From Campylobacterales bacterium (GTDB lineage Bacteria > Campylobacterota > Campylobacteria > Campylobacterales > Sulfurovaceae): a stretch of DNA of 64,000 nt. The stretch spans positions 1 to 64,000 of the forward strand of contig JACXUM010000020.1 in assembly GCA_014763895.1 (NCBI GenBank), written 5' to 3'. Shown piece after piece: positions 1 to 45,135 of this stretch. Numbering within the stretch: the first letter of the stretch is position 1; every line of letters starts with the position of its first letter. A program made the position numbers and the translations under genes. A model generated the notes under the pieces. The model saw only the letters and a program-made list of their open reading frames with translations, was not told the DNA's origin and searched no databases.

Positions 1-36
1 ATCTACAACAGTAGAAATTATATGGTCTCTTTAGAC
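1..36 (-). CRISPR. Type V-A direct repeat, leader-proximal; array continues off the left edge
   Basis: Reverse complement is GTCTAAAGAGACCATATAATTTCTACTGTTGTAGAT; its last 20 nt TAATTTCTACTGTTGTAGAT match the Cas12a crRNA handle. Lies next to cas2. Only one repeat is visible. Confidence 0.9.
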
Positions 37-176
37 AGATACTGTAGCAAAAATAGCTATTTTTGTTACATTTTTACTCGCTTTTCCAAGTTTTTTATGC
101 CCAAAAATACTATTCTTCATCTCTTTTATCCATTAAGACCAAGGTTTGCAATTTAATCTTTCGCTTTAAGATTTTA
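37..176 (-). promoter_or_regulatory. CRISPR leader between cas2 and the first repeat
   Basis: AT-rich 140-bp non-coding segment between the cas2 stop and the first repeat; crRNA polarity puts the leader on this side. Confidence 0.7.
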
Positions 177-449
177 TCATATTACTATTAAATCTTCATC
201 ATCATTTTTGGCATATCCGAAACGGTCTATTTTGCATTGTTTGCTCAGTCGCATGATGATGACGCTGTCGCTTTGTCCGAACTTTTTTTCAAACTTGCTT
301 TTGATCTCTATCGTGACGTTGTCCAAAACCCTGTCGCTGTTTTTGATGCGAAACATAGAGTATTGCATCCGTCCGCCGTATTTGGAGAGCATCTTTGCAA
401 ACCGTGTACGGAGTTTGTCGTTGCTGATGTCATAAGAGATAATGAGCAT
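177..449 (-). CDS. cas2: CRISPR-associated endoribonuclease Cas2
   Basis: 90 aa, MLIISYDISNDKLRTRFAKMLSKYGGRMQYSMFRI; Cas2 fold start, next to cas1. Confidence 0.92.
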   Translation of the reverse strand: MLIISYDISNDKLRTRFAKMLSKYGGRMQYSMFRIKNSDRVLDNVTIEIKSKFEKKFGQSDSVIIMRLSKQCKIDRFGYAKNDDEDLIVI

Positions 450-1417
450 TATGACCCTCCGTTATAGACCGGAAACTGTTCTATGGGCTTACTTTGCATG
501 AATGCCCTGTAGTAGCCCCTGATGTACAAGAAGATATCGTTTTTGTGTTCAAGCAGCTCCTGAAGCAGCAGCCTCACATACGGTTTGCTATCCTGACCAA
601 AAATCCTGTACTGACCGCTGACTACGCTAAAGTCTTCCTTTTTCACCTGTCCAAGCGCAAAGGCTTTGCGAACTCTTTGGTCTATGATCGTGCGAAACGG
701 CTCTACGATATCACACACGAGCGACTTACGCTGGTAGAAATCCTGATGATACACGCCCTTATAGGTATCAAAACCATAAAGCCCCAGCATTGCATCAACA
801 AGATGAAAAAGCTGTGTATAGCCAATATCCAAAAGCAGGTTGGCGATATCTCTTTTGGCGCGGGGCTGTCTGCCATGCCACTCTATTTCTTCAAACATCG
901 CGCCAAAATAGACGCGTGATGCTATCCCCTCCATACCCAGCAGCGACTGAAGGTCTATCTCCTCCGGTTCATCGAGTCTTGCTCTGTACTCAGTCAGTTT
1001 GAGCAGGGCATTTTTTAGTTTTTCGCTTTTTTCTCTTCTTTTTTTGAGCGCCGCTATCTGCCGTTCGATCTTGTTCTTGACGATGTGCATCGCTATCTCA
1101 TTGCCTTCGTAGCCGTACTGTTTGGAACGCAGTATGACATTGCCTTCAGCCGCGGCAAACCAACTGCCGTAGGGGATGAGTCCATGCGTCATCATGACGA
1201 TACTGAAGCCAAACTTTTTGGAACGCTGAAGTATGCCCGATGTGATCGTGATATGCCCCACGATAAAGAGCGCAAAAAGCCTGTGGCAGCTTGACTGGTG
1301 TTTGATGCCATTCTCATGGGCGATAATGATGTTGTCATTTTTGAAACTGACCCTATCGCCATAACTCAGTAACGCTACAACAATCTGCTTTTCTTTAAAA
1401 TCAGGCAAACTTAGCAT
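449..1417 (-). CDS. cas1: CRISPR-associated integrase Cas1
   Basis: 322 aa with Cas1 motifs (GMEGIASRVYF, GVYHQ, DIVEPFR). Confidence 0.93.
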   Translation of the reverse strand: MLSLPDFKEKQIVVALLSYGDRVSFKNDNIIIAHENGIKHQSSCHRLFALFIVGHITITSGILQRSKKFGFSIVMMTHGLIPYGSWFAAAEGNVILRSKQYGYEGNEIAMHIVKNKIERQIAALKKRREKSEKLKNALLKLTEYRARLDEPEEIDLQSLLGMEGIASRVYFGAMFEEIEWHGRQPRAKRDIANLLLDIGYTQLFHLVDAMLGLYGFDTYKGVYHQDFYQRKSLVCDIVEPFRTIIDQRVRKAFALGQVKKEDFSVVSGQYRIFGQDSKPYVRLLLQELLEHKNDIFLYIRGYYRAFMQSKPIEQFPVYNGGS

Positions 1418-1971: not shown

Positions 1972-4900
1972 TCATCTCTGGGCAAATTGCAGCCACTCTT
2001 TGTTGGTGATCTTGAGATCGGGTTTTTTGATATCTTGTGCCTCTTTGATCTTTTTTACAACCATGAGACCTTTTCGCGCGATATTGTACGCGCCGTTGGC
2101 GTCGGCATCTTTTGGCAGGGTATCATCGCATACTCGACTATCATAAAATACACCATTCTCATCTACTACAGGTGAGACGAGATAATCGATATCTGTACCC
2201 GTGATAGAGTTACGCATCTGGAGCGTAAGCCTGAAAAGCCCCAAAAGCTTCTCAAAAAATGCCTTGTCATTCTGCGCTACTATATACTCTTTGAGATTGT
2301 CTGCCTGCCCGTTTAGAAGCGTTTTGAAGCCATCTGTGAGCTGCACGGTTTTATTGTCCCACTGGTTGAGTTTTTCGCTGTTGCGATATGTCAAAACCCT
2401 GTCGCCGTAAGTGCATATCGTCCAGTTCTGGCGCGTTCCTTCTGCTTTGGGATTAAACTGCGTATAGTTGTCTATCTCAAATTCATAGTAGTCTTTTTCG
2501 CTGTTATAGCGGATAGACTTGAACTTACCAAAAAACTCTTTTGACTTCTCCACACTGGCGTATCTGGTATCAAAAAGATTGACAAATCCCGTAACCGGAT
2601 CGATCTTGGAGGTGTTCCATGCAGGCACATAGAACAAAAAGCCGTTTTGTTTGCCCATCTTTTCAAAGCTCTCAAATTTGTTGGTCAGCTGAAGCGCATT
2701 GAGTACGCCGCCGAGCTCGTTTGGAGATTTTTTCTTGTCCACGAGATAGTTGAGCTTATCGATGAGCATCTTTTCGAACTTCTGATACACCTGCTTTTCG
2801 ACCTTGAAGCGTCCGCGTTTAAATCCAAAGTTGAGGTCTTCAAGGACGACGATAGCACGATGCTCTACCATAAGCGTAGCGATACGGTGAATGACATGGC
2901 TCATGTAACCCTCTTTGAGTTCTTTGATATTTTCTACCGTACCCCAGTTGACCCGTGCCTTGGCTCTTTCGTCCTCTTTTTTTGCCAATTTCTCATGATA
3001 ATTGATCACATGATCTTTTCCGTTGTAGCTGTTGATGATCTGATTGAGCGTGTACTGCTCTACGATTTTGCCCTGCGCGTCTATGAGCGATAGATAGAGC
3101 AAATGACGTTCACCTCGGTCGATACCGATGATTTTGATATCTTCTTTGCCCGAAGCGATCATCTCATTGACTATTGCATTAAGATTGGTATATCCTTGCG
3201 CTTTGAAGTTGAGCGTGATGGGCACGTGAAACTGGAATTTATCAAAGGCAAAACGACGGTCTTTGATAATGGGATAGTCAAACTTGCCAACCAATTCTTT
3301 GGCATGGTGTCCTTTTTGCATCACCTCATCACTGTATATGATAGACTTTTTACGGTAAAAAACCTCTGCTTGACCGTTGAGCTTATAGACCACATCGGCA
3401 AGATTTTTCTCGTCAAATAATGCCCTCCAATAAAGGGTATGCATATTAGGCGTTCCTTTGCTATAAGGGGAAAAATCTTTGTTATAGATTTGAAAGAGGT
3501 AAAGTTTTCCCTCGGATACAAGTGTATCGATATAGGATTGAGAGATGTTTTTATACGTTATTTTGTATCCTTGCTGTTCAACCTCTCTGTAAAATCCGCT
3601 TAAATCTTTATAACTCGCCGTGTCGGAAAACTTGAATTCAAAATTTTTCCAGTCTTCGTGCTTTTGTATCGAAGATTTAAAAAAATCAATTAGTTTATGG
3701 CAATGCTCCAAATCAAAAATTTCACCTTTTTTGTGCGTTCCCTTTTTATAATTGCTGATTATATCGGAAGAGGGTGCAAACTCATCAATACGGCTGTTTG
3801 AAAAAAACACCTTTGGCAACATCTTGTTTGCTCCGGGCAAAAGCTTGTAGTTTATTTTGCGATATGATGAATCGTCTTGAGACTCTGGGGTATTTTTAAA
3901 CACACGATTGTGTTTTTTATCCATAATACCAAGATAAAACAATCCGTTTTTTTCAAGCAATATTGCTGTGTTATCTGTTTCTTTGTTCACATCCCACCCA
4001 TCAAGTAGTGTAGAGTTTTCAAAATTGAGTTTGAATTTCTCAAGCGAGTATGGTTTTTTGGTCATAAAGTTTCGCACTTTATCGTAGAGTTTCACTACGG
4101 CGCTCAAGCTTTCAAAATAGCTCTCAAAGGTTGCATAAAAGGCGATATCCCTATCCACATCGCTCTTGACGCTCAGCGGCTTGAGGAAACGCTGCCATGC
4201 CAAAAGCGCGTCCATCACTTCCTTGATACGCTCAGTTTTTTCTTGATCGTCCAACCATGTTTTATATGCGACTTGTACCGCTTTGGTTAAAGGCTTGATT
4301 TCATTGGAAAAATATGTCAGGATATCCGATGGGGATTGCGCCTCTTTTAGCGCTATATGGATATCGTTGATACTAAAATTTTGCCGTCACAACACTCAAA
4401 CGCGATGATATTGTTTTGATAAAAAGTTTTTATTGCTTCTGCAAGTTCGTTTTTGTCTTCAAAAGCCTCCGGAAGCCACGAGAGAGATTCGCGGTCGCTG
4501 AGTATCTGTTTGTAGAGCGGTTTGAGATTGGGAAGGTCTCTTTTGGAAAGACCGTGTTTTTGTCTATAAAGATTGATCTTTTCGTTAAATCCTTGTATCT
4601 TTGAGCCATCATTAGACACTTTGCCGCCTATCATAGTATTGTAAAGGTCGATGTGGTTTTGAGCTAATGTGTGTGAAAAATATGCCAGCGTAAACATATC
4701 TTCGAATACTGCGCCAAAAAGATGCGACTCTATAGCATCTTTTGAATCGGCAATTAATTCGGGATATTTTGTTGCAATTTGCTCAAATGTTTTTTTGTTG
4801 CCTAGAAACACGGGTAGATTTTCATGGACGATACGGTATGCAACCGCAGTATGTAGCGCTTCATCGATGTACATATTGGCTCTGTTTTCATGAAAACCTG

Positions 4901-5369
4901 TAAAATATGTCGTGAAGTCCACAAATTTCAGAACGATTTCTTTTTCGTTTATTTTTTGTTCTTCAGGGATTTCTTCGCTATCCAAAAAAGTCAAAAGTTC
5001 ATTCCTTATCAGCTCTTTTTTAAACAGCGTACTCCATTTTGGATGTTTTTTAAAGAGTTCAACGATCCTTTTTCTCAAAGTATCCTGAAGCTTTTCAAAT
5101 TCTTTTTTCCCTTTTTCATCCTTAATTGCGAAATAGAGTTTCTCATACGTTTCAAGCCCCTCTATGGCAATGCCATTTAAGGCATCTTCGATAAACGCCT
5201 TATGATACCTGTCGATGATCTTTTTCATCTCCTTGTACTCTTCGGCTCTCTGTTCATCCTGAATGATCAACCCTTTGGCTTCAATATGCTCTTTTGTTTT
5301 CCCGACAGGTCTAAGTTCAAACCTAAGCGTTTTTGAAAGCTGGTATTGGTTGGTAAAATTTTGTAACAT
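1972..5369 (-). pseudogene. cas12a: Cas12a (Cpf1) effector, frame-disrupted: N-terminal ORF 4353-5369, C-terminal ORF from ~4379 to 1972
   Basis: N-terminal NQYQLSKTLRFELRPVGKT; RuvC I IIGIDRGERHL, RuvC II VVLEDLNFGFKRGRFKVEKQVYQK, RuvC III DADANGAYNIARKGL. Frames are offset by one base near 4376-4383. Restoring the frame gives ~1132 aa. Confidence 0.93.
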
Positions 5370-23825: not shown

Positions 23826-25517
23826 TTATCTGACGATCACTTGTTCTATCTGCGTAGACTGTTCTGCTTGAATCTTTGTGTAAACATTTTCCATCGGTAA
23901 TACATTGGCATCCCGTCCATAGATAAAACTTTGTTCTTCGACCAAAGTCTTATATCCTTTATTGAGTTCTAATGCTCTCTCCTTGGACGGGAAAAGAAGC
24001 AAAGAAATATCTTGGTGTAAGGCTTCTAACATATCTTGTTTAACAGAACCATCACTATGAAAGAACTTCTCTTGAACCTCTTGGTTATTTCTAAACTCAT
24101 TTCCGGAATGATTGTTCTGAAGATAAAAACTGTACTCATATTGTTCTCCATAATTGAAGTAAGAAATCAAAGGCTCTTTGATTCCCTTAAGGCCTTTTTG
24201 AGTCCAATGATTCCAACCGTAATCATTCGCATCTGGATCAATACCTTCAAACTTTCTTGCAAAAGCAAAAGTAGAATCTGTTGTACTGCCAAGATGGGAA
24301 TGACATCCCATGCAATTAATGGTCTCTTCATGTGTTTGGGGCCTCAACAGACCATTTTTGTCTTCGATAAATCCTTGATATATCCACCCGATTTCATTAT
24401 TTAACCCATATTCGTAGTCACCGCGGAAAGTCGCCAAAACCGCTTCATCTGTTCCATTGACTATTGCTTCTTTGGTTTCAGTTAAAGCCGTTCTGGCTAT
24501 TGCACTGTAACTATTCCATTCATATTTTTTTGCATACCGAAGCTCTTTCATACGTTTTGACAACACGATACGACCGAGATTTTCATCCCAATCAATATAT
24601 CTTACACTATGTAAAAACTCGGTATTTTCAGGATAGAGTCCCAGTGCCAAATGTATTTTTTTCTCTTCAAGCAATTTTTTTGCCATACCCACGTAGGACA
24701 TTTGATCATAAGTCGCAACTACAACGATTGAACTACTATCAAGGATACCGTTTTGGTTTAGATCTACCCCGTATTGAACCTCATCAACCGTAACGGAAAG
24801 ATTAATATCTTTTTGTTTTACCACGGATTCAACAATTGCGAGATTTAATTTGTAAACTTCTATATCCAGTTGGCCATCTTCACTCATTGCAAAATTTTGG
24901 TCCAAACGAATCAATACATCATCCATCGAACCGTTTGTCGGCCAGAAAGTGCCCAAAAACGGATAGTACCTAAATGCACGCCATAGGGTATAGTTTCCAT
25001 TTATATCTCTATCAAAACCTTCACTATCAAAATTAAAATAACAATCCGGAATATAACCTTCCCAATCTTTGGGTAACCTATCGGCCAAAAGGATATTGCC
25101 TTTCTCGTCAATATAGTTGGATTGTCTCACATAGGTCCATATCTCTTCATCACTGATCTGGCTTACCCTGATACTTCTGTCTTTGAAAAGATTTGAAAAC
25201 GGATTTTTCATCATTTCAGGGGGGAAATTGTAACTTTCCTGGAGAGGAGAATCATTATAATAGTTTGGAATAATACCTTTTGTATGACAACTGTAACAAG
25301 GGTTAGAAACACTCTCTAAACTCTCATCTTGCGTCATAGTATAACACATCGAAGTGATATAACTTCCTCTTGTATTGAGGATTTGGTCATAACTGATATT
25401 ATTCTCTATTTCAATCTTTTGAAGATAACTTGTTTTTTCATTTACGTTATTATTACATCCAAAAGAGAAGATCATTGTTATAAACGCAGCAATTAAAAGT
25501 ATGTATTTCATTTTCAT
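23826..25517 (-). CDS. Lipoprotein with two CxxCH c-type heme motifs
   Basis: Lipobox-like FSFGC; CYSCH and CMGCH motifs; 563 aa. Confidence 0.7.
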   Translation of the reverse strand: MKMKYILLIAAFITMIFSFGCNNNVNEKTSYLQKIEIENNISYDQILNTRGSYITSMCYTMTQDESLESVSNPCYSCHTKGIIPNYYNDSPLQESYNFPPEMMKNPFSNLFKDRSIRVSQISDEEIWTYVRQSNYIDEKGNILLADRLPKDWEGYIPDCYFNFDSEGFDRDINGNYTLWRAFRYYPFLGTFWPTNGSMDDVLIRLDQNFAMSEDGQLDIEVYKLNLAIVESVVKQKDINLSVTVDEVQYGVDLNQNGILDSSSIVVVATYDQMSYVGMAKKLLEEKKIHLALGLYPENTEFLHSVRYIDWDENLGRIVLSKRMKELRYAKKYEWNSYSAIARTALTETKEAIVNGTDEAVLATFRGDYEYGLNNEIGWIYQGFIEDKNGLLRPQTHEETINCMGCHSHLGSTTDSTFAFARKFEGIDPDANDYGWNHWTQKGLKGIKEPLISYFNYGEQYEYSFYLQNNHSGNEFRNNQEVQEKFFHSDGSVKQDMLEALHQDISLLLFPSKERALELNKGYKTLVEEQSFIYGRDANVLPMENVYTKIQAEQSTQIEQVIVR

Positions 25518-25534
25518 TTTCTGTTTTCTGTTTT

Positions 25535-25555
25535 TATCAGGACAATGTCCTGATA
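25535..25555. repeat. Inverted repeat/hairpin between the phoX-like and heme lipoprotein genes
   Basis: TATCAGGACA-A-TGTCCTGATA. Confidence 0.6.
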
Positions 25556-25559
25556 ATTT

Positions 25560-27434
25560 TTATTCAAATATCTCTGCCGGAATACCGTCGATATATCCTA
25601 CAAAAGCTTTTCTGTCATCATCTGTTGCATCTTCCAGCAAAGCCGTATTAGGTTTTGCCCCAGTAGCACTTTTAGGATTGTCTGAGAAAGGGTGCTGTGC
25701 ATTGAGCATTAAAATACCTTTATCTTCAACCACACTTTGATCAATACCGGTTACCTCTGCACCGATAGGCAAAGAAGCAATTCTTGTCATAGTTTGTGTC
25801 TGGGTATTGTATGCCCAGCTCATGTTGTTGACATGAGATTTTGTATCTTCACTGATCAGCAATGTATCATGTCCAATATAAGTAATATTGTCAGGGTTTG
25901 AAATACCGTTTGGATCACATGCCCACTCATCTGCATATGCATCACCTGCGACTAAAGGTTTTCCTGCAATAATTGCATTCATATGAGTTCCATTATAATT
26001 AGAGTCCAAAGAGATTTCATAGACTGCACCACATGCATTTTTCTTCAATCTAATGTCGTTGATCGGTTCCATTCCTTTATAATTGTCTTCCATACTGTTT
26101 TTGATTTCACTCATCGCAACATAGAGTACATTTTTATCTTTGTTGTAAGAAAGACCTTCTTCTTTTTTAAATTCTACGGAAGCACCTCTGTAAGCTGCAT
26201 ATTTTCGTGATTCCAAGAATGCAGCCGCTTTATCCATATTAGGCTTTAATGCTAAACATTCGATCTTATCATCTTCATACACTTTTGTATATCCTGTAGC
26301 ACAGTTTCCGTTTTCATCTGGGCTAGCTATTTCAAAGATATCAGTCAAACTCATTTTTGAATCGATCATTGTTTTGATCTCACTGTCTTTTGCATGTCCA
26401 AGCTCGATCCAGTTTAAATCAAATGAGCCGCCGTTTTGATCTGAAGTCTGATTGACCTTTGCAGCGTAAAGTGTGCCTTCCCATTCTGCTTTGAAATCTG
26501 TGATCTTACTGTCAGATACAAATTTCCACAATCCTTTTGCCGTACCGTCATCACTCATATAGACCGTTTTGCCATCCGGCATCATTGCAGCCAACTCAGG
26601 TGTATATTTGCCCGTTACATAGTGTTTTGCTACTTTATTTGTACCATCAGACTGCGGTTGAACTTCTACAATGTATCCATAATTGTAAGGTTTAAAACTA
26701 TCTCCGTTATACCCATTGTTTTTATCGATAGTCGTATCATTGAAGTATTTGTTCATACCATCTACATAACTACAAAAAGCATTTGGTTTGCCATTTGTAT
26801 CATTACCGCTGCCATCCAAAGCACAATCCGCATAAAACGGTGAATTGTTATCAGCAAATACAGAATTTAAAGAGTAATCCTCTTCCCCGCCCAAATGGCT
26901 TCCGTAAGCTGTTTTCGTACTGGCACAATTGATAATCGTACCACCGATAGAGGCCAGGTCAACCGGTTTTGTATTGATTGCTTTTAAGACACCGTCTTGA
27001 ACTTGAACTTCTGTATGGTAAAGTTCACCGGGTGCCTCTTCCATATGTGTGATAAGATAGCTTTTATTGCCTACATTGATCATTGAGTTACCATCAGGTC
27101 CATCTGAGATATCTTCAGAACCGTCAGTATTTAAAACAGGATTTCCATCTTTATCCGTAATCAGGCCAATAGTCCCTGTTCCAATTGAATCACCCATTTT
27201 TGACAAGATCTTGTAACTGAGCGGATACTCCTTGCTAGTATTATCATCATATGTTACGATCATTTTAGGGGAGACACGCATTTGCGTTTTTTCAGAGTCA
27301 TTTGCAGATAGTTCAACGGGTTCAAAGGCAATTGATTTTACTTCTGCTGAAACCTTATCATTATTATTGCTGTCACAAGCTGTAAAAGTTAAAGAAAGTG
27401 CACCTAAAGTCAAAACCGGGAGAATATATTTCAT
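25560..27434 (-). CDS. PhoX/DUF839-family lipoprotein (alkaline phosphatase-like)
   Basis: Lipobox FTAC; GGTIINCASTKTAYGSHLGGEEDY, YVTGKYTPELAAMMPDGKTVYMSDDG. Confidence 0.7.
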   Translation of the reverse strand: MKYILPVLTLGALSLTFTACDSNNNDKVSAEVKSIAFEPVELSANDSEKTQMRVSPKMIVTYDDNTSKEYPLSYKILSKMGDSIGTGTIGLITDKDGNPVLNTDGSEDISDGPDGNSMINVGNKSYLITHMEEAPGELYHTEVQVQDGVLKAINTKPVDLASIGGTIINCASTKTAYGSHLGGEEDYSLNSVFADNNSPFYADCALDGSGNDTNGKPNAFCSYVDGMNKYFNDTTIDKNNGYNGDSFKPYNYGYIVEVQPQSDGTNKVAKHYVTGKYTPELAAMMPDGKTVYMSDDGTAKGLWKFVSDSKITDFKAEWEGTLYAAKVNQTSDQNGGSFDLNWIELGHAKDSEIKTMIDSKMSLTDIFEIASPDENGNCATGYTKVYEDDKIECLALKPNMDKAAAFLESRKYAAYRGASVEFKKEEGLSYNKDKNVLYVAMSEIKNSMEDNYKGMEPINDIRLKKNACGAVYEISLDSNYNGTHMNAIIAGKPLVAGDAYADEWACDPNGISNPDNITYIGHDTLLISEDTKSHVNNMSWAYNTQTQTMTRIASLPIGAEVTGIDQSVVEDKGILMLNAQHPFSDNPKSATGAKPNTALLEDATDDDRKAFVGYIDGIPAEIFE

Positions 27435-34312: not shown

Positions 34313-35616
34313 GCGTTGTATCCTTTTGTATGATGATCATCTTTATATTGTTGTACATCAACATTTTCCGTATTGATATTAAACATTTTTTTCACTGCTT
34401 CAATGCTGTTGGCATTTTTTTTCTCTGCAGAAGAGTGTCTTAGATTTTGTGTAGGGTCATGTAAAAAACGGTTGAACATCTGTTGAGCCATTCTTCGCAT
34501 ATTCTCCTCGTATTCGGCAGGAACAAACCCTTTTTGGATCGCCCTTTTCATCTCTTTATCTATGGCCTTTGAGACATATTCGCGCATCTGTTTGATAACG
34601 GGTTCAACTGAAAGTGCACGCAGCCATGCGTAAAATTCCTCTTTAAACTTTAAAACGATCTCTGTCGCCCTGACTGCCTGCTCTTCACGCAATGCATGAT
34701 TATCCTGCGAAATACTTTGGAGGTCGTCTATCCTGAATAGCTCTAATTTTTCAAACTCCATATCTTCGATATCCCTCGGAATCGCCATATCAAACCACAA
34801 TCTTGGCAATGTGTCATTCTCAATCATATCTTTTGTGATGATCGATTCAGCAGAAGAGGTTGCAGAAAAAAGCAAACGGTAGCGATTGAGGTATTTGTCC
34901 AATTTATCCATCGTGTCAGCCTTGACATTTTCTCCAAGACTTTGGGCGATCTCTTTGACCTTTTCAATATCCCTTCCGATCAAGACTACATCGCATCCTA
35001 CTCTCAGTAAATGCTTTGCAGCCAATACACCGATCTCGCCTGCCCCTACTACAACGCCGGTCATTCCCGGCATATTGTCACCCAGTATCTTATGCGCCTG
35101 AGAAACCGCAACCGAAGCGATGGAGATAGGATGTTCAGAGATGTTGGTTTCATTCCGAACCTGAGCTGCACACTTGATCGCATAAGAAATGACTCGGTTA
35201 AGTTTGCGTCCGGCTGTCCCGTTTTCAAATGAAAACCTAAAAGCCTCTTTTACTTGACCCGTAATCTGCGATTCACCGATGACTAAAGAATCCAACGAAG
35301 AGACAACGGCAAAAATATGCTCTATAGCCTCTTCATCGTCATAACGTTTCGCCGTTGCTTTGACATCATAAAAATTCAAACCGCTTTTTTGGGTCATCAA
35401 TCCCAAGACGGTATGGTAGCTTGAAAAGTTGTCTCTTGTTGCCATAACGATCTCAACCCTATTGCAAGTCGAAACGATAAATGCTTCATGGATAAAATCA
35501 AAACTGACCAGTTCATCAAGTATCACTTTTAACTCTTCATTGCTCGCGAATGCAAGCTTCTCTCTCATCGCCTGATCACAATTTTTATGCGTAAAACTTA
35601 TGATTTGGTAATACAT
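34309..35616 (-). CDS. hemA: Glutamyl-tRNA reductase
   Basis: [29 protein letters not shown]. Confidence 0.96.
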
Positions 35617-36512
35617 TAAAAATCCCTGTCTATCATCTCTCTAGCAATACCCAAGAGTGCAGTTTCACCACACTGCTCCATCAAAACTATCGCTTCATCG
35701 ATCAATATTTTAGCTTCATGATATGACCGCTGGATGATCTGATGCTTTTGCATTCTCGATTGGATCCAAGCTTGTTCTTCCCCATTCAATACTTTTCCAT
35801 GTAAAGAACGAAGCATTTGTTTTTCTTCATCATCCAAGGCCTCATACAGATAAATATAAGGCAGCGTCGTCTTGCCTTCGGCAAAATCATGCAAAGCCGG
35901 CTTGCCTAATGTAGCACTGTCAGACGTAATATCCAATAGATCATCGATCATCTGAAATGCAATTCCCAGATTTCTTCCGTAAACCATATAAACTTCTTTT
36001 GGTTTTCCTGCCAAGAGTGCAGCTGCGCCGGCACTCGCTTCGATCAAGGAAGCCGTTTTTTGATAGATCATGTGAAGATATTTATCTTTGTCGGTATTGA
36101 ATGATTTGGCAAGCAAAACATCATTAAGCTCTCCAAGACTCAGTTGGGTAACGGCATTGGAGATTAGTTTGGCAACATCCGTACTGATATTGTTTAATTC
36201 AAAGAAACCTTTCGAGTAAAGGATGTCTCCCAGCATGATCGCCGTTTTATTCCCATATAACGCATTTAAAGAAGGCATATTACGTCTTGTATAGGCATCA
36301 TCGATCACATCATCATGCAACAGACTGGCTGTATGGATCATCTCCACTACCGCCGCTGTTTTTACAATCGTCAAACTGTTTCCTGCAATTTTAAGGATCA
36401 GTTTTGCACGGAGTCTTTTGCCATGCGGAAGTTTCGCATAATAAGCCAAGACCTCTTTATCATTCAATTCAATAATATATTGTTCAATCTTTCTTTCAAC
36501 TGCGCTAAGCAA
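35616..36512 (-). CDS. Polyprenyl synthetase family protein
   Basis: LLHDDVIDDAYTRR and QMIDDLLDI motifs. Confidence 0.92.
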   Translation of the reverse strand: MLSAVERKIEQYIIELNDKEVLAYYAKLPHGKRLRAKLILKIAGNSLTIVKTAAVVEMIHTASLLHDDVIDDAYTRRNMPSLNALYGNKTAIMLGDILYSKGFFELNNISTDVAKLISNAVTQLSLGELNDVLLAKSFNTDKDKYLHMIYQKTASLIEASAGAAALLAGKPKEVYMVYGRNLGIAFQMIDDLLDITSDSATLGKPALHDFAEGKTTLPYIYLYEALDDEEKQMLRSLHGKVLNGEEQAWIQSRMQKHQIIQRSYHEAKILIDEAIVLMEQCGETALLGIAREMIDRDF

Positions 36513-36520
36513 CTTTTATC

Positions 36521-36796
36521 CTATTCACACTGAGTAACGATGTTACCGACAAGCTCTATAAAAATACTATTGGTTCTGTCTTCAAGCTCCTGATCAATGA
36601 TCATGCTTTTAAGCAGCATTTCATGTTCTTCTTCCAACCCTTTCTCTTCAAGGATCTTTTCCGCTACAGCCAAACGCTGGAACATTTTTTCAAGTTCCAT
36701 CTCAACGATATTTTGGTTGGCCGATCTTGCAATACCAAAAAAATTACTCTTTGGAGTACCGCCCAAGAAACCGTCGTCATCATCAAAAATGTTCAT
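36521..36796 (-). CDS. DUF2018-like small protein
   Basis: 91 aa, MNIFDDDDGFLGGTPKSNFFGIARSANQNIVEMELEK; Campylobacterota-type conserved hypothetical. Confidence 0.55.
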   Translation of the reverse strand: MNIFDDDDGFLGGTPKSNFFGIARSANQNIVEMELEKMFQRLAVAEKILEEKGLEEEHEMLLKSMIIDQELEDRTNSIFIELVGNIVTQCE

Positions 36797-36842: not shown

Positions 36843-38735
36843 TCAAACTTTGTTAAATTTCTCATACGCTTCAATTGGCTTTGGCTCTCCAAGATAATTT
36901 CCCTGCGCATATCTAATTTTCAATGATTCAACCGTATGATATACAGTTTCATCATATATAAATTCTGCTATCACTTTCATACCTAATTGAACTGCCATAT
37001 CATTGATACCTTGGATTACAATCTTTGTACGATCAGAAGAAATAGCAAGCTCTCTTATCAGAGAACCGTCAATTTTGACAATATCTATATTCAACCGTAT
37101 CAAATAGGTAAAATTGGAATATCCGCTTCCAAAATCATCTATTGCGATTTGAGAACCGTAAGCTCTTAATTGCTGGAAGATGATACTGGCTTTCTCATAG
37201 TCAATTATTTCATCATATTCAAGTATCTCAAAAGTTATCCGGTTGGCAACTTCCCTGTTTTTATAAAGGTTCTTATTGATAAGTTTCATCATGTCACTGC
37301 TGTAAAGATCGTTCAAATCCAAATTCATGCTAATTTTAATATCCGTATAGACATGTAGTTTTGAAAAAACTTCTTCCAATACCAATTTGCTCATTTTAAT
37401 ATATTGGGTTGTTCCCCTGATTGCAGGAAGAAAGTAATTGGGTGTAATCAATTTTTCGCTATCTATTTTGTCTCTTAATCGTACCAGCGCTTCATATTTT
37501 GCAATTTTTCCATTTTCAATATCATAGATCGGCTGATAGAGGCAAACCAGCCTTTGATCCTCCAATGCCTCTTTGATATAATCCATGTTGCCGTATTGAA
37601 GTGACGCAAACGTTTCGGACTTTAAAACAATATAGTCATTTTTTCCTTTATTTTTTACTTCTAACAGTTTTTCATCAAGCACTCTTAATACATTTTGCAA
37701 AGACAATACCTCATCAGGAATTACCATGGCGCTCATCGAAACATTTAAAGAAACTAATTCGTTATCTATAAGATATCTTTTGATTTTCAAGTTTATAAAC
37801 AGATCTTGTACAAAAAAATCCAACTCTTGTTCTGTTTTAGGTATTGCAATAAAAAACTCTCCTCCTCCAATCCGTACCAAGATATCATCTAACGACAAAA
37901 ATGTTTGAATTGTCTCTACAAATTCTTTCAGTACCTTATCACCAACCCCATAACCGAATTTGGCATTCACTTCCTTAAATTCATCAATATCGATCAAAAT
38001 GGCATTACAACTGCCTAACTTCTTTCTGTTGAAAAACTCTTCCAGAAACAATTTGGTATGTGCACCTGTCAGTTTGTCAATCAAAACAGTTTGCCTAAAC
38101 CGATGATAGCGATAGGCCATCCATATCAGTACTACCATACTGATGAACAAAAAAATTTGCATCATCATAGCAACTGATTGAAGCGGTGAATTAATGTTAT
38201 TTAAATAATCTGCATATTCTTCCGAGATATCCATCACCAAAAGTGCCTGGGTCTCTCCATTTTCATTGATAGGATACAACAACGAAAGCCAGATTTTTTG
38301 TGTACCATCCTCCTGCTGGGCAATATGCATTTGGTGTGTCAAAAAAACATTATCAAAAGTTTTGCTCTGAGGGAAAAAAATGGTTTGAAATTCAACAGGT
38401 TCTTCTTTGGACCCATCCAATAAAAAACGATAATGACCTTTAGAGTCCTTATTGAGAACAAATATATACTGAAATTTTTCTGTCAGAAATGTTTGAAGCA
38501 CATCATTTAACTCACTTCTTAAATTCGGATCGTTCTTTAAGGTTGAAATAATTTTATTATCTGTTTTAAGTTGTAGATAATCAACAATTTTTTTTGCGTA
38601 TTTTTCTGATTTAACAATCTCATCATGCTTCAGTTTATCTGTACTTTTTACAATCTCATATTGTAAATAAAGCGCAAAGAGTAGTGATAATCCGACAATA
38701 ATGAAAACAAGCTGATTAACATAATTTTTTTTCAT
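36843..38735 (-). CDS. Membrane GGDEF(degenerate)-EAL protein with periplasmic sensor region
   Basis: Two TM segments flanking ~170 aa; GGGEF in place of GGDEF; EAL motifs YEALVRL, DDFGSGYSN, VKIDGSLI. Confidence 0.88.
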   Translation of the reverse strand: MKKNYVNQLVFIIVGLSLLFALYLQYEIVKSTDKLKHDEIVKSEKYAKKIVDYLQLKTDNKIISTLKNDPNLRSELNDVLQTFLTEKFQYIFVLNKDSKGHYRFLLDGSKEEPVEFQTIFFPQSKTFDNVFLTHQMHIAQQEDGTQKIWLSLLYPINENGETQALLVMDISEEYADYLNNINSPLQSVAMMMQIFLFISMVVLIWMAYRYHRFRQTVLIDKLTGAHTKLFLEEFFNRKKLGSCNAILIDIDEFKEVNAKFGYGVGDKVLKEFVETIQTFLSLDDILVRIGGGEFFIAIPKTEQELDFFVQDLFINLKIKRYLIDNELVSLNVSMSAMVIPDEVLSLQNVLRVLDEKLLEVKNKGKNDYIVLKSETFASLQYGNMDYIKEALEDQRLVCLYQPIYDIENGKIAKYEALVRLRDKIDSEKLITPNYFLPAIRGTTQYIKMSKLVLEEVFSKLHVYTDIKISMNLDLNDLYSSDMMKLINKNLYKNREVANRITFEILEYDEIIDYEKASIIFQQLRAYGSQIAIDDFGSGYSNFTYLIRLNIDIVKIDGSLIRELAISSDRTKIVIQGINDMAVQLGMKVIAEFIYDETVYHTVESLKIRYAQGNYLGEPKPIEAYEKFNKV

Positions 38736-39196
38736 AACTCATCTACTATAAACTGTTGATACTCGCGAGGCAATTGAATATGATAAAACTCCAATCTTTT
38801 TTTTAAAAATAAGAGCTGTGATCTTCCTTTTCTCCAATAAAATGCGCCGATTATCCTATCCTCTTTTTTTAAAAAATGATAATCTGTGGCAAATATCAAT
38901 GGAGAATATTCAAAATTTTGATCTATTTTCTTTTTTATCCAATCGAGTGTTTTCACTGAAGTAACTAGGACAATATCAGAATGTTCAAAACTATCTGAGA
39001 TCTTAATATCTCCTGAGCCTTTAAATACTTCTTTATATTCCCTGCCCTTGACATAAACAGTGATCGGTTTTTTTAAACCAAGGGCATTGAATATTGAGCT
39101 ATAAATTTTAAATGTACTTTCCTTCTCCAATGCATGCAACTGCACACTGATCAATAGTAAGGAAAGGAACAGCTTTCTCAAAATGTATACTCCCAT
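38732..39196 (-). CDS. Small periplasmic protein, YfiR-like by size, motif and context
   Basis: Signal peptide; ...DIVLVTSVKTL...PLIFATDYHFLKKEDRIIGAFYWRKGRSQLLFLKKRL; between TonB receptor and GGDEF-EAL genes. Confidence 0.5.
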   Translation of the reverse strand: MGVYILRKLFLSLLLISVQLHALEKESTFKIYSSIFNALGLKKPITVYVKGREYKEVFKGSGDIKISDSFEHSDIVLVTSVKTLDWIKKKIDQNFEYSPLIFATDYHFLKKEDRIIGAFYWRKGRSQLLFLKKRLEFYHIQLPREYQQFIVDEL

Positions 39197-41103
39197 TCGA
39201 TCATGATTCTTCTGTCCACCGGCGAGATCGACAATGGCTGCATCATGTTAGTTGTAGAAGGATCTATCCTGAAAAGTGAAGTCTCTTTGGCCCTATCAAG
39301 GATGTTTTCCCCTTTGAGTGTGACGGTCATATCCTCATCCATATTCCAGCTGACCGAACTGGTCAGATCCCAGTAATTTTTCCAGTCAAGACTGTTGATA
39401 TGCCAAACCAACCCGTTATAAACGTCAAATTTTCCACACCTGTTAAACAATGAAAAATAGCCGCTGAAATCTTCCAATTCATCCAAACTAAAAATATGCC
39501 TGTAATCAGCATAATACACTTGTGTAGTCAATTTGCTGTCAATACTGAAATCATACTCAAAATTTAGAACCGTAAAGAAATACTGGGTATTGCCGCTATC
39601 CAAAACATTTTGTACCAATCCCTCTTCATCTTTCATAAAAAGTAGCATCAAACGGATGCGCTGTTGATCCGTACTATAGGCAAGCTCCTGGGTGATCCCT
39701 ATTGTCTTTTGCGGTTCGACCGATCTGGTAAGAGGACCACCGATATAACGATTGTAGGGATCCAAAGCAAACATTAAACGGTAAAGATAGGTTTTGTAGG
39801 TCCATTGATCATTATTCCAGATATATCCCAGACGTATCTGAACGAGATCATCATCTTCAACTCCCCCGTTTCTGGCAAAATGCATTCCTTCCACTCCAAA
39901 CGTAAGAAGTTCTCCTTCACCCAATGCATACTGGTCTTGGAAGAAAAGGGAAGCTATAGCTTCCTGGTCGAAATCAAGCGGGATATCACCAAATCCATTC
40001 TGTTTTACCCTATCAAGTTGTTTGACCCTCCCTTTGATCCCTGTTGAAATCCTGTGTTTGCCTATGGTTTGATTATACGTAAGTTCACCGGTATAGGTAC
40101 TGTTGGTTATCTTACCATCGAGCTGTGTAGTATAGGGTGAAAACAGCGCCAGATAGGCTAACTGATGATCATCCAGCATATAAATAGAACTCTTCAACCA
40201 ATCATAGGCAAACTGTGCGTGCCAGTGTTCATCTAGATCAATACCGTAATCCATATGGATATTCAGATAATCTACCCTGCTTTCTTCAGGCGTCGCATCA
40301 ACACTGTACCCTGCCAACGCATCAGTATTTTTTTTCATGACCTGAAGATGAAAGGACTGTTTCTCTGTCTTTATACTGGAAAAGAGCTGTGTCCTTTCAA
40401 AATCTCTCGATAAAGGGTGCGAAGTGCCGTTAGCGATTTTTTCCCGTTTGTCTTTGGTATGTGAAAAATTAACCATATAGGAAAGATCATTAACCTGCTG
40501 GGCACAACTGAATCTTTGATCATTATATCCCCTGCTGCCGCCTCTTAACCCAAACTTGCCGCCGCTGTCGCGTTTGGGGTCTTTGGAATAAAGAAAGATT
40601 GTAAGGTACGCCGGCTCCACAGAAGTTTCAAATGAAGGGATCATATAGTAAAACTCGATGTGATCCACAAAATCGATATCCATATCACCATAAAGCACAA
40701 GCCCGCTGCCGAGCCACCCTTGCGTGATCTCTACCCCATCTATATATAAACGTATAAAATTGCTTCTGTAAGGCTCAAAAGCTCCGCTTGTGAGGGGATC
40801 GGGCAAAGCAAATCTGTTTTCATGATAATAGACTACCGGCGTTGTCAAAAAAACATCTTTAAGTGTCCTGGCATGCATATTTTCAAGTTTTTCTCTGCTG
40901 TAAAGTACCAAATGCCCCTTATTTTCATCAACCGTTTTTTGGCTTAAAGCATTTTTCTGATTATACTCCTCCATCATGCTTTCAATACTCTGTGCCTGTG
41001 CATTGATATAAAACAATAATCCAAAGAGATAGAAACATCTCTTCATATATTTACTTTTTATCCTCATGACTTTCCCTATCTTTTCAATGATTTTAGTATA
41101 CAC
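39178..41103 (-). CDS. TonB-dependent receptor-like outer-membrane protein
   Basis: Plug-like segment (VLYSREKLENMHARTLKDVFLTTPVVYY, RLYIDGVEITQ), barrel, C-terminal MIEWEYTF. Confidence 0.8.
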   Translation of the reverse strand: MYTKIIEKIGKVMRIKSKYMKRCFYLFGLLFYINAQAQSIESMMEEYNQKNALSQKTVDENKGHLVLYSREKLENMHARTLKDVFLTTPVVYYHENRFALPDPLTSGAFEPYRSNFIRLYIDGVEITQGWLGSGLVLYGDMDIDFVDHIEFYYMIPSFETSVEPAYLTIFLYSKDPKRDSGGKFGLRGGSRGYNDQRFSCAQQVNDLSYMVNFSHTKDKREKIANGTSHPLSRDFERTQLFSSIKTEKQSFHLQVMKKNTDALAGYSVDATPEESRVDYLNIHMDYGIDLDEHWHAQFAYDWLKSSIYMLDDHQLAYLALFSPYTTQLDGKITNSTYTGELTYNQTIGKHRISTGIKGRVKQLDRVKQNGFGDIPLDFDQEAIASLFFQDQYALGEGELLTFGVEGMHFARNGGVEDDDLVQIRLGYIWNNDQWTYKTYLYRLMFALDPYNRYIGGPLTRSVEPQKTIGITQELAYSTDQQRIRLMLLFMKDEEGLVQNVLDSGNTQYFFTVLNFEYDFSIDSKLTTQVYYADYRHIFSLDELEDFSGYFSLFNRCGKFDVYNGLVWHINSLDWKNYWDLTSSVSWNMDEDMTVTLKGENILDRAKETSLFRIDPSTTNMMQPLSISPVDRRIMIEWEYTF

Positions 41104-41197
41104 TAAATTTAAAATAAAAATAAGTTTTTAGATATTTTTTATAAAATTAATTTTATACTTTAGATTATTCAATAAATCAAAAATATAAAGAAAAAAT

Positions 41198-42022
41198 ATG
41201 AGCGGATATGACGCATTTGAGATTTTGACAAAAGAATATTCGCTGAAACTCGCGACAGGCAATAAAGATTTTGAAGCTGTAAAAGAGGTGAGAGCCGAAG
41301 TATTTGCTCCTAAATACAAGATGTCACGTGAATATCTTGAAAATAAAGGTTACCTTTTCAGCAACGATGACCATCAATCCTTCATTTTTCTTTTGCAACA
41401 TAGACCAACGGGTAGATATGTAGGGACCGTAAGGAATTTTTTTATAAACAGTAAAACAACTGTGCAGCATATGCCCATGCAAAAAGACGGCCATGTAGAA
41501 GGGATCGAACGTCTCACGCAGGCTCTGCCTATTTGCGAAATCTCCCGCATGGCACTTTCAAATGATCTGCCATCTTATAAAAATCTTTCACAGCTTCAAT
41601 TAAGGACTTATTTAACGTTGGGTCTCATGATAGCAACCCGTATCAATTTTTTTCTTTATCGCTATGCAACAATTTTTGCCATTATGGAACCTTCCTTACA
41701 TCGGATACTTTCACGCCAAGGGGTCAATTTTGAACAAATCGGTGAACCGGTTGACTATTATGGAATGAGAACACCGTTCGCGATTGAGAGAAATAAACTC
41801 TTAAACGAAACGGAAGCATTCATGGGAACAATTACCAGGCATTATCTCAAACAACTCTGCAATGATCCAAAACCGTTCTGGGATTTTATCGACAACAACC
41901 CCTATCTTGACCGTTCGGATATCCGCTTAGACAAGATCTGTGAACTTTTCAAAAGTTATGGAGAGGATGTCGATCATGCACTTTTACTGGGTGAAAAAGA
42001 GCCTTCTCTTCACTTAGCTTAA
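41198..42022 (+). CDS. FeeM/exosortase-associated type N-acyltransferase (GNAT-like)
   Basis: CEISRMALSND, AIMEPSLHRILSRQGVNFEQIGEPVDYYGMRTPF. Confidence 0.7.
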   Translation: MSGYDAFEILTKEYSLKLATGNKDFEAVKEVRAEVFAPKYKMSREYLENKGYLFSNDDHQSFIFLLQHRPTGRYVGTVRNFFINSKTTVQHMPMQKDGHVEGIERLTQALPICEISRMALSNDLPSYKNLSQLQLRTYLTLGLMIATRINFFLYRYATIFAIMEPSLHRILSRQGVNFEQIGEPVDYYGMRTPFAIERNKLLNETEAFMGTITRHYLKQLCNDPKPFWDFIDNNPYLDRSDIRLDKICELFKSYGEDVDHALLLGEKEPSLHLA

Positions 42023-42024
42023 AT

Positions 42025-45000
42025 TCAAACCTTTACCCGATACATAACCGCATACATTAACGGTACATAAAAGAGGTTCAATACCGTAGCCCAAGCTATA
42101 CCAAATCCCAAGGATACTGCCATAGGCTGGAGGAGCAATGCCTGCCCGCTGGCAAAGAAGATCAAAGAAGAGAGCCCCAACACGGTCGTAACAGATGTAA
42201 GAATGATCGGTCTGAGCCTCAAGCTCGCCCTCTTGACCATCTCTTCAGGTGTACGTGCTGTTTTGATAAAATCAAGCATAATGATCCCGTCATTGACAAC
42301 AACCCCTGCAAGGCCGATGATCCCCATAACCCCAGGCAACGTCAGGTTGATACCCATCAGTTTGCTTCCTACCAGTGCCCCGACGATCGAAAGAGGGATG
42401 GTTGAGAGTATGATCAGAGGCAGAACAAGAGAATTGAACATCCATACCAACGAAATAAAGATCAGGAACATCGCGATCATCATGGCCTGCATCATCTCTT
42501 TTTTAACTTTCGAGCTCTCTTTCTCTTCACCTTTGATGAGGACGTTTACCCCGCTTTGACGGATCTCTTTTAAAAGCGGCTGTAATTTCTCCATTACCTC
42601 TGCAGATACGATCTTTTCACTTTCAACCCTGGCAAAAACAGAACGCACCTTTTCGCCATTGTCTTTAAATATCTTGACAAAACTCTTTTGATAGTAAAAA
42701 TCACACACATCCGACAACCTTACGATCTGGCTTCCATCAGGCGTCATGATCTTAAAATTACCGATCGCAGAAGAATCCTGTTTATACGCATCTTCTATCC
42801 TGACGCGTATCAATCCTTTGGCATTGAACATTTTGGCATATTCGGCTTTCAAAAATGCCCCCCTAAGCACGTTTGTGACATACCCTTCGCTCATGCCCAA
42901 GGATTGTCCGTATTCATTTACCCTAAGCTTCAACTCCCGTTCGCCTTCATTGGCATTATCAGAAATATCCTCTACCCCATCGATGGAAGAGAGACGTTCT
43001 TCTACTTTGTGCAATACTTCAATCACTTTATTTTCATCAGTAAAAGCAAATCCTATCTCGATGTCATGTCCAACAAGTCCTGTCTGCTGTACATAGATAT
43101 TGAATTCTTCAAAGAGATTTTTACCGCTGATCTGAAGATTTTTGAATTTTTTCCCGACATTTTCCTGCACTTCCTTAACGATCTGTTGTGCTTTTCTCTC
43201 CCGGATCATATCACTATCGTCATATTCCAGTGAAAAAAGCGGATTGATATATCTGTCAAAGAAGTTTTCAGGCGCTTGTTCATGAAGATTGATAAAGATT
43301 TGAAAGAGGTTCTCTCCCGTCTCAAAACTCTGATCGGGATTGAATTTAAATCCTATTACCGATGTTACAGAATCTACTGCACTTTTATCCAAAGACTTCA
43401 GCAACTCTTCTTCAATCCGTGTAACATACGCTTCCGTATTGTTAAGATCATTATTGATATTTACTTTCCCGTTGATGTAAATTTGTTGAGCATCAAATTC
43501 CGGAAATAACTGAAATTTTGTGATCTTTGCCATCATGATCGTACTTAGAATGATAAATAGAACCAAACCGATCAGAGAACGCCACTTCTTTTGCAGCAAT
43601 TTTGACAAAAAATTCGTATATCTACTTGTAAGATACTTCCATGAAGTCGTCTCATCTTCGATCTTTTTGATCTTACCGATACTAAAAAGCTCCTGGGCAT
43701 GCAACGGTAGAAAATAAAAGGCTTCAAAAAGCGAGCTTAGAAGTAAAATGCTGATCATTACAGGCAGAACCTGCATGAACATCCCCATCTTCCCGCTCAT
43801 GATCAAAAGTGGCAAAAAAGCAAAAACCGTTGTCAGCGTTGCTGTCACAACAGCAGGAAACATCTCAAGCGCTCCGTCAACCGCAGCATCTTTTGGCGAT
43901 TTCCCGGCTTCCAAATGCCTATAGATGTTCTCCGCTACAACAATCGCTTCATCCACCAACATTCCCAGTGCGATCAATGCCCCAAGCAGGGTAAGCATAT
44001 TCAAACTGTACCCTATCAGATCAGCCGCAATGATCGCGACCATGAAACTAGTCGGTATCCCAAGAGCAACCACCCATGCGATCCGTGAATTCACACTTAA
44101 AAAAAGGGCCAGAAAAACCAAAATAAGACCAAAAATGATATTGGAAGAGACTAAATTCAAACGGTTTTTCACCCAGATGGACGTATCGGTATAGGCTTCA
44201 AACGTGATATTTTTGTATTTGTCATTATAGGTTTTTAAAATCTCTCTGACTTCTTTGCTTAAAGCGATCGCATTGCCGGCCTTGCTTTTGTTGATATTCA
44301 AAGAGACATTCTGTTTACCGTTAAAATGCGAAAGCTGTTGGGCCTCTCCAAGCCCATAGCTGACCTTTGCCACATCCCCCAGCCGAAACTGTTTATTCCC
44401 GATATGGATTAAGACAGATCCAAGTGCTTTGGCGTCTTTTTCCCCGTTGATCGTAGAGATATAAAGATGATCTCCCTGCCCATCCAATGTGCCTGCCGGA
44501 AAAATCGAAGAGATTGATGATATCGCTTGATATATTGCCGCTTTATCCAACCCATAAGCATCCAGCTTTTTCTGGTCAAGTTCTATCAATACTTCCTCAT
44601 CGGCATCTCCCCGTATCAAAATCCCGCTGAGATCCTTGATAAGCGACAGCCTGCTTTTAAGGTCATTGGCAGCATCCAATAATACAGACTTCTCTACGTC
44701 TCCGGAAATTGCCACAAGAAGCAGAGGATAATCATGGATCATGATCTTTGCAATCGGTTCATTCATATCCGATGGGAGGTCTTTTCTGATATTGGAGATG
44801 ATATCTTTGACATCCGACAGAACCAATTGCGGATCATTCCCCGGTTTGATATCCGAAGTAATCGTAAAAAACCCGTTTTGTATCACCGTATCGATCGTGT
44901 CGATTTCAGAAAGGCTTTTGAGCTCATCTTCGATCTGTGCAACTGCCATTTTATCAAGCACATTCGCACTCGCACCCGCATAACTGCCGGTAATGGATAT

Positions 45001-45135
45001 CTGATCGAGCGTGGAGGGAGGAAAGATCTCTTTGGCGATATTTTGATAGGCAAAGATGGACAACAAAAGCATAAACACAAGCAAGATATGATTGATAATC
45101 GGTCTATCAACAGCAAAACGTAAAAAACGTCTCAT
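42025..45135 (-). CDS. RND-superfamily efflux transporter
   Basis: 1036 aa, 12-TM RND layout, MRRFLRFAVDRPIINHILLVF, GALIALGMLVDEAIVVAENI. Confidence 0.92.
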   Translation of the reverse strand: MRRFLRFAVDRPIINHILLVFMLLLSIFAYQNIAKEIFPPSTLDQISITGSYAGASANVLDKMAVAQIEDELKSLSEIDTIDTVIQNGFFTITSDIKPGNDPQLVLSDVKDIISNIRKDLPSDMNEPIAKIMIHDYPLLLVAISGDVEKSVLLDAANDLKSRLSLIKDLSGILIRGDADEEVLIELDQKKLDAYGLDKAAIYQAISSISSIFPAGTLDGQGDHLYISTINGEKDAKALGSVLIHIGNKQFRLGDVAKVSYGLGEAQQLSHFNGKQNVSLNINKSKAGNAIALSKEVREILKTYNDKYKNITFEAYTDTSIWVKNRLNLVSSNIIFGLILVFLALFLSVNSRIAWVVALGIPTSFMVAIIAADLIGYSLNMLTLLGALIALGMLVDEAIVVAENIYRHLEAGKSPKDAAVDGALEMFPAVVTATLTTVFAFLPLLIMSGKMGMFMQVLPVMISILLLSSLFEAFYFLPLHAQELFSIGKIKKIEDETTSWKYLTSRYTNFLSKLLQKKWRSLIGLVLFIILSTIMMAKITKFQLFPEFDAQQIYINGKVNINNDLNNTEAYVTRIEEELLKSLDKSAVDSVTSVIGFKFNPDQSFETGENLFQIFINLHEQAPENFFDRYINPLFSLEYDDSDMIRERKAQQIVKEVQENVGKKFKNLQISGKNLFEEFNIYVQQTGLVGHDIEIGFAFTDENKVIEVLHKVEERLSSIDGVEDISDNANEGERELKLRVNEYGQSLGMSEGYVTNVLRGAFLKAEYAKMFNAKGLIRVRIEDAYKQDSSAIGNFKIMTPDGSQIVRLSDVCDFYYQKSFVKIFKDNGEKVRSVFARVESEKIVSAEVMEKLQPLLKEIRQSGVNVLIKGEEKESSKVKKEMMQAMMIAMFLIFISLVWMFNSLVLPLIILSTIPLSIVGALVGSKLMGINLTLPGVMGIIGLAGVVVNDGIIMLDFIKTARTPEEMVKRASLRLRPIILTSVTTVLGLSSLIFFASGQALLLQPMAVSLGFGIAWATVLNLFYVPLMYAVMYRVKV

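Follow-up and report, generated by a model that had tools for sequence, protein, structure and literature searches.

A putative acyl-signal synthase co-inherited with a TonB-dependent receptor, a YfiR-like periplasmic protein and a cyclic di-GMP enzyme in Campylobacterota

The YfiBNR (YfiNR) system of P. aeruginosa and its Yersinia counterpart HmsCDE combine, in clustered genes, an outer-membrane component, a periplasmic protein of the YfiR fold and a membrane enzyme of the GGDEF family with a periplasmic sensor region. Variants of this module with GGDEF-EAL or kinase outputs have been documented (PMC3375315). Two other described groups bear on the locus considered here: the N-acyl amino acid synthases such as FeeM and Nas354, whose physiological role has been described as unclear (PMC4897644), and the LuxI-LuxR systems. 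We analysed a stretch of 64,000 nucleotides (the window; contig C27) from the 1.77-Mb genome of a Campylobacterales bacterium, in which four genes resemble parts of all of these. A putative signal synthase, a 274-residue N-acyltransferase of FeeM/LuxI fold (AT; 41198..42022, plus strand), is divergent from three minus-strand genes encoding a divergent TonB-dependent receptor (TBDR; 39178..41103), a 154-residue periplasmic protein of YfiR-like fold that may relay signals between the receptor and the cyclic di-GMP (c-di-GMP) enzyme (38732..39196), and that enzyme, a membrane GGDEF-EAL protein and putative c-di-GMP phosphodiesterase (36843..38735). The two successive overlaps among the minus-strand genes span 4 and 19 bases. 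A first-pass annotation, made from the sequence alone, had recognised these four open reading frames with their overlaps and divergent AT, all of which we confirm, and had proposed that they form an acyl-signal to c-di-GMP circuit. We find that the AT and the receptor operon have been gained, lost and relocated together, so that their grouping is not a matter of chance, and we hold with high confidence that the four genes are one functional module.

Compared with YfiBNR, whose outer-membrane partner YfiB is a PAL/OmpA-like lipoprotein, the module has a TBDR in the corresponding place and, in addition, a dedicated acyl synthase. With LuxI-LuxR it shares a LuxI-like fold, the active-site pattern and a synthase placed back-to-back with a putative response apparatus; unlike LuxI-LuxR, it has no LuxR, the proposed receptor being in the outer membrane and the proposed output c-di-GMP, and there is no evidence for the use of S-adenosylmethionine. 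No protein of the genome matched the LuxR-type Autoind_bind family (PF03472).

The survey covered 397 genomes of the phylum Campylobacterota, many of them metagenome-assembled and with contigs that break off close to the locus; the fractions given here leave out loci whose flanks are truncated. The AT was found in 28 of the 175 genomes of the family. It lies divergently beside the TBDR gene in all 26 assessable Sulfurovum loci (25 relatives and the window), and the YfiR-like and EAL genes come after the TBDR gene wherever the contig continues. The four genes stay linked while their outer flanks vary (L067, L071, L074, L077). In AT-negative genomes we examined the slot between rsmH-ftsL-RND and DUF2018-ispB-hemA. 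It proved closed in 11 of them (L268, L270-L277, L280, L281), the RND gene being followed directly by ispB or DUF2018 across gaps of 27-367 bp. In genome G064 the slot is closed and a complete four-gene module lies about 0.9 Mb away. Genome G081 (L096) has no AT, a shortened EAL gene and broken copies of the YfiR-like and TBDR genes. Furthermore, tree distances of the AT and the TBDR correlate after the signal of ispB has been removed (partial r 0.685, permutation p 0.0005, 15 loci).

What might the AT make? The best model for its sequence (ACYLTRANSFERASE; AT, 41198..42022) is TIGR03694, the exosortase-associated acyltransferase, which is matched by all 25 aligned members of the AT family; at 84.5 bits the score lies below the curated cut-off of 111.95 bits. 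Matches to PF00765, PF21926 and PF13444 are weak, under the Pfam cut-offs for Autoind_synth and FeeM. Profile searches of the AT, TBDR and 154-residue families against PDB sequences returned nothing, and fold comparison alone was informative. The AlphaFold model of the AT (pLDDT 93.3) has FeeM (2g0b) and LasI (1ro5) as its best PDB matches, with ranks 1-8 all held by FeeM, LasI and TofI structures (E 2e-7 to 4e-6). The earlier label of FeeM/exosortase-type acyltransferase thus stands as regards fold and best model, but not as regards the score, which falls short of both family cut-offs. The residues R32, D58, R79, E114 and R117 do not vary when the AT is aligned with other acyltransferases of Campylobacterota, an annotated Agrobacterium N-acyl-homoserine lactone (AHL) synthase and an exosortase-type acyltransferase from Alteromonas; we take these to be the positions of the conserved LuxI set. 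The invariant glutamate, part of an E-[IV]-S-R motif, corresponds to Glu103 of Nas354, which is essential (PMC4897644). The modelled AT has a GNAT fold whose nearest counterparts are the N-acyl amino acid synthases and the LuxI-type enzymes. Because of this fold and the invariant active-site residues, it is likely to make a released N-acyl compound, for which an N-acyl amino acid or a lactone-like molecule would be the likeliest reading; the amine and the chain length are not readable from sequence. The FeeM fold, the glutamate and TIGR03694 as best model are common to the AT and the known N-acyl amino acid synthases and TIGR03694 proteins, from which it differs in its sub-threshold score, in a C-terminal helical extension of about 70 residues, and in being linked to a receptor-c-di-GMP cassette with no exosortase locus nearby.

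On the last point the first-pass annotation was borne out, as no exosortase/PEP-CTERM context was seen in the window. The single exosortase/archaeosortase-like protein found in the genome (158 residues; G000:C45:15754-16194, L182) is encoded on another contig, distant from the AT, where it adjoins type II secretion pseudopilin-like genes. An exosortase-linked function of the AT was rejected.

The proposed receptor is recognisable mainly through its family: Pfam Plug is matched by all 30 members (best 2.5e-6) and the TBDR barrel by 8 of the 30, while the window protein itself reaches only E 0.077. Judged from these matches, it is a highly divergent TBDR. The 154-residue protein has no Pfam family match at all. 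Of the 26 best PDB matches to its AlphaFold model (pLDDT 90.1), 14 are YfiR or YfiB-YfiR complex entries, with TM-scores of 0.50-0.61 over its length; in Foldseek, the TM-scores against YfiR (4yn9, 4xjy, 4zhu) are 0.58-0.61 over about 145 residues, with E-values of only 0.0016-0.006 for the best. YfiR itself belongs to PF13689 (DUF4154) and carries four conserved cysteines (PMC3375315); the small protein here has neither. None of 35 family members matches PF13689 at E<=1 in a search that does detect PF13689 proteins elsewhere in the phylum, and the four cysteines are missing from the window protein, mature family members having 0-2. A redox-sensing role like the one put forward for YfiR is therefore not expected. 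The gene lies between the TBDR gene and the EAL (or kinase) gene in every receptor-carrying locus read. The locus had been likened to YfiBNR-type systems; the YfiR-like fold agrees with this, but the system is not YfiBNR proper. The first-pass annotation had named two outcomes as fatal to its proposal, and within the reach of genomic data neither came about: the AT stays next to the receptor operon in every assessable relative, and the small protein resembles YfiR in fold.

The enzyme matches Pfam EAL at 181 bits and GGDEF at 74.6 bits, and two transmembrane helices, hydrophobic segments near residues 4-30 and 184-209, enclose a periplasmic sensor region. The EAL residues E415, N471, E503, D533, D534, K554, E591 and Q611 are invariant in 29/29 homologues. 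The GGDEF motif, on the other hand, is degenerate (RIGGGEF in the window protein): none of the 23 closest sequences (window, L062-L083, L089-L091) has its acidic residue any longer, and six more distant homologues (e.g. L094, L098-L101) still do. Cyclase activity has probably been lost and, given the invariant EAL site together with the missing acidic residue, the output is probably c-di-GMP breakdown only. The earlier description as a membrane GGDEF-EAL enzyme consequently holds for the domains and the intact EAL site, with the qualification that a phosphodiesterase is the probable output. This would set it apart from YfiN, an active diguanylate cyclase.

A second version of the arrangement strengthens, by analogy, the case for a module. 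When the whole phylum was searched with the AT profile, a weak match in genome G226 led to AT2, a LuxI/FeeM-type acyltransferase above Pfam cut-offs, in an operon comprising an HpcH/HpaI-type gene, AT2, a canonical TBDR, a 182-residue probably secreted protein and a GGDEF-EAL protein. At the threshold used, 39 of the 397 genomes have a match to the AT2 profile, a few cross-matches to AT1 (the type found in the window) and to a third clade, AT3, included. A TBDR gene adjoins AT2 in 29 of 32 assessable loci, nearly always followed by genes for a small protein and a GGDEF-EAL protein; the exceptions are L247, L249 and L252. The AT2 operons of other families (L176, L201-L215, L238-L254) have the same four roles as the Sulfurovum module, although they usually form a single operon where the Sulfurovum AT is divergent, and their enzymes mostly retain an intact GGDEF motif (SGDEF).

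How the two versions are related can be followed part by part. The acyltransferases split into separate clades (AT1 support 100/99). The TBDRs are distantly related (profile match over 567 columns, prob 96). The GGDEF-EAL enzymes are related in their catalytic halves (prob 100), whereas their sensor regions have no detectable relation. Profile-profile comparison of the small proteins aligned the signal peptide only, so a common origin of the two families is not shown; of 13 small proteins linked to AT2, four give weak matches to PF13689 (lowest E 0.007). In one family (L241/L251) the AT2 version occupies the Sulfurovum slot, in the order RsmH-FtsL-RND-[module]-DUF2018-ispB-hemA. Either the receptor cassette has been exchanged in place, or the combination has arisen twice, or the two versions have drifted too far apart for their kinship to be recognised; each of these readings implies that the synthase and the cassette belong with one another.

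Two further observations concern these acyltransferases. An HpcH/HpaI aldolase/citrate-lyase-like gene always lies upstream of AT2 in family f8 (L176:3875-4819, L201-L215), and its product perhaps supplies an unusual substrate. AT3 (L255:5958, L256:6767-7528, L257:6346; PF21926 FeeM at 66 bits in L256) adjoins a 7TMR-DISM histidine kinase and an OmpR-type response regulator, assigned by Pfam in L256 and matched by same-sized genes in L255 and L257. In L256 and L257 the two genes lie upstream, placing an acyl synthase beside a two-component system.

Taken together, these parts suggest the following circuit. The AT would transfer a fatty-acyl chain onto an amino acid or similar amine and release an N-acyl compound. 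We infer that this product is the receptor ligand: the compound, whether the cell's own or that of a neighbour, would be bound by the divergent TBDR in the outer membrane. Receptor occupancy would then be passed to the periplasmic YfiR-like protein, much as YfiB sequesters YfiR in YfiBNR, and the YfiR-like protein would bind the GGDEF-EAL protein at its sensor region in the periplasm and alter its phosphodiesterase activity. With a degenerate GGDEF domain, the output would run one way, lowering c-di-GMP, and the circuit may couple the level of an acyl signal to leaving or entering the biofilm state. The relay from receptor to phosphodiesterase through the small protein seems to us reasonably probable; for the full loop, from AT through TBDR and YfiR-like protein to phosphodiesterase, we see the balance tipping only slightly in favour. 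The idea of the first-pass annotation, that an acyl product or another receptor substrate is sensed through receptor and periplasmic protein to tune c-di-GMP, thus gains support from the linkage, the folds and the AT2 operon.

Several observations weigh on the other side. The likeness of the 154-residue protein to YfiR is one of fold only (about 5-9% identity, E about 0.002-0.06), and other periplasmic binding folds score like YfiR. Two AT2 loci (L247, L249) have no receptor gene, so an acyltransferase can stand alone. The slot common to both versions could mean shared ancestry rather than independent assembly. Finally, the TBDR-YfiR-like-EAL cassette occurs phylum-wide without an AT and can therefore serve other ligands. 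The YfiR-like profile matches 88 of the 397 genomes, in 26 genera, and thus reaches wider than the AT; in all 18 AT-less loci read, TBDR and YfiR-like genes occur together with neither AT1 nor AT2. In one locus (L158:6722-8212) a histidine kinase with a LapD/MoxY-like periplasmic region replaces the GGDEF-EAL protein after the cassette. Given this distribution, the cassette is a general input-output device, one branch of which became tied to an acyl synthase in Sulfurovum.

The same distribution favours the most serious competing explanation, in which the wiring is reversed: the TBDR would sense an environmental ligand (a metal chelate, a vitamin or a foreign lipid), and the AT, whose product would not be that ligand, would stand on the output side: co-regulated with c-di-GMP, it would produce a biosurfactant or surface lipid used in attaching or dispersing. 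Some N-acyl amino acid synthases do make surface-active N-acyl-tyrosines and carry PilZ domains, and may be targets of c-di-GMP (PMC4897644). However, Pfam and model searches found no PilZ domain in the AT, and the AT co-diverges with the TBDR beyond what ispB accounts for. Receptors from two unlike cassette families each adjoin an acyltransferase. Moreover, genome G436 (L258) lacks both AT2 and the TBDR and keeps the HpcH/HpaI gene, the small protein and the enzyme, as would fit a partnership of synthase and receptor. We consider the reversed wiring unlikely and retain the acyl-signal circuit as the preferred reading.

Far less probable is a nutrient or metallophore loop, in which the AT would make an acylated chelator or amphiphile, an RND pump would export it, the TBDR would re-import it and the c-di-GMP arm would report uptake. 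An RND (HAE1-type) efflux pump (42025..45135, minus strand; Pfam ACR_tran 470 bits) does lie beside the AT in the window, as in L241/L251. Yet the AT has no such neighbour in its closest relatives (L062, L063, L065, L080), and module-less genomes keep the pump, so we rejected it as a constant part of the module; it is the right flank of the slot and probably lies outside the module, in which there is no other biosynthetic gene. Least probable of all is that the AT, a member of the superfamily of OlsB-type enzymes (OlsB models are matched weakly by some AT2 members), is a membrane aminolipid enzyme that neighbours a sensory operon through history alone, since a separate, strong PF13444 (OlsB-type) protein is encoded on contig C3 of this genome, the module relocates as a unit and is precisely absent elsewhere, and the acyltransferase recurs with a second cassette type.

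On the left, ispB and the DUF2018 gene (35616..36796, minus strand) flank the module and, from the gene order in module-less genomes, lie outside it. The 94-bp gap between the AT and TBDR genes given by the first-pass annotation is correct only when counted from GTG 41103, a mechanical start that is simply the first GTG of the open TBDR frame. In an alignment with relatives, the ATGs at 41067 and 41046 give more plausible signal peptides, as they do in those relatives. One of these two is probably the true start, because a conserved leftward TATACT-like box (41100-41095) coincides with the GTG; the gap would then probably be about 130-150 bp. This box and a rightward one that precedes the AT (41154-41159) delimit a divergent promoter region (41095..41159). 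Both recur in most of 12 relatives when AT-TBDR intergenic regions are aligned; they are consensus-type evidence only, and a generic promoter scan did not pick them up.

Elsewhere in the window, at the contig end (449-6346), lies a Type V-A CRISPR-Cas region with Cas1, Cas4, Cas12a and a WYL-type regulator. Its Cas12a is split over two open reading frames in different frames, the REC1 part at 4353-5369 and the remainder with RuvC/Nuc at 1972-4254; no CRISPR repeat array was found in window positions 1-1200. Positions 23826-27434 encode two adjoining, probably secreted proteins, judged by eye only: a CxxCH haem-binding protein (23826-25517) and a PhoX-like phosphatase-type protein (25560-27434).

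We found no description of this module in open-licence papers on YfiR and TonB-dependent receptors, on AHL synthases and Sulfurimonas, or on N-acyl synthases and c-di-GMP, and no report of acyl-signal quorum sensing in Campylobacterota in the same literature. A genome-collection scan with the AT profile returned Sulfurovum/Epsilonproteobacteria records only, with a peptide pattern that is AT1-specific and uninformative on other phyla; plasmid searches gave remote acyltransferases only, with no cassette in the annotated neighbourhood read. A study of the epibionts of vent shrimp, many of them Epsilonproteobacteria, reports finding neither a luxI gene nor AHLs (PMC5362221), which is why LuxS/AI-2 (autoinducer-2) is the usual candidate for signalling there. 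The co-inheritance, in Sulfurovum and its relatives among vent bacteria, of an enzyme of the acyl-signal kind, a receptor, a periplasmic protein and a probable c-di-GMP-degrading enzyme suggests an undescribed form of bacterial chemical signalling. Whether it amounts to a further acyl-signal quorum-sensing architecture, widespread in Campylobacterota and built of a LuxI/FeeM-type synthase, TBDR perception, a YfiR-like relay and a c-di-GMP enzyme without LuxR, assembled more than once or with its cassette exchanged at one slot, is a more tentative matter, for which we would give slightly less than an even chance. With its synthase in genetic linkage to a c-di-GMP enzyme and a receptor of the outer membrane, the module offers a testable system both for signalling in this phylum and for the role of N-acyl synthases. 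If the proposed circuit is correct, TonB-dependent receptors would take a direct part in the sensing of signals that the cell itself makes, and relays of the YfiR type would acquire a small-molecule input.

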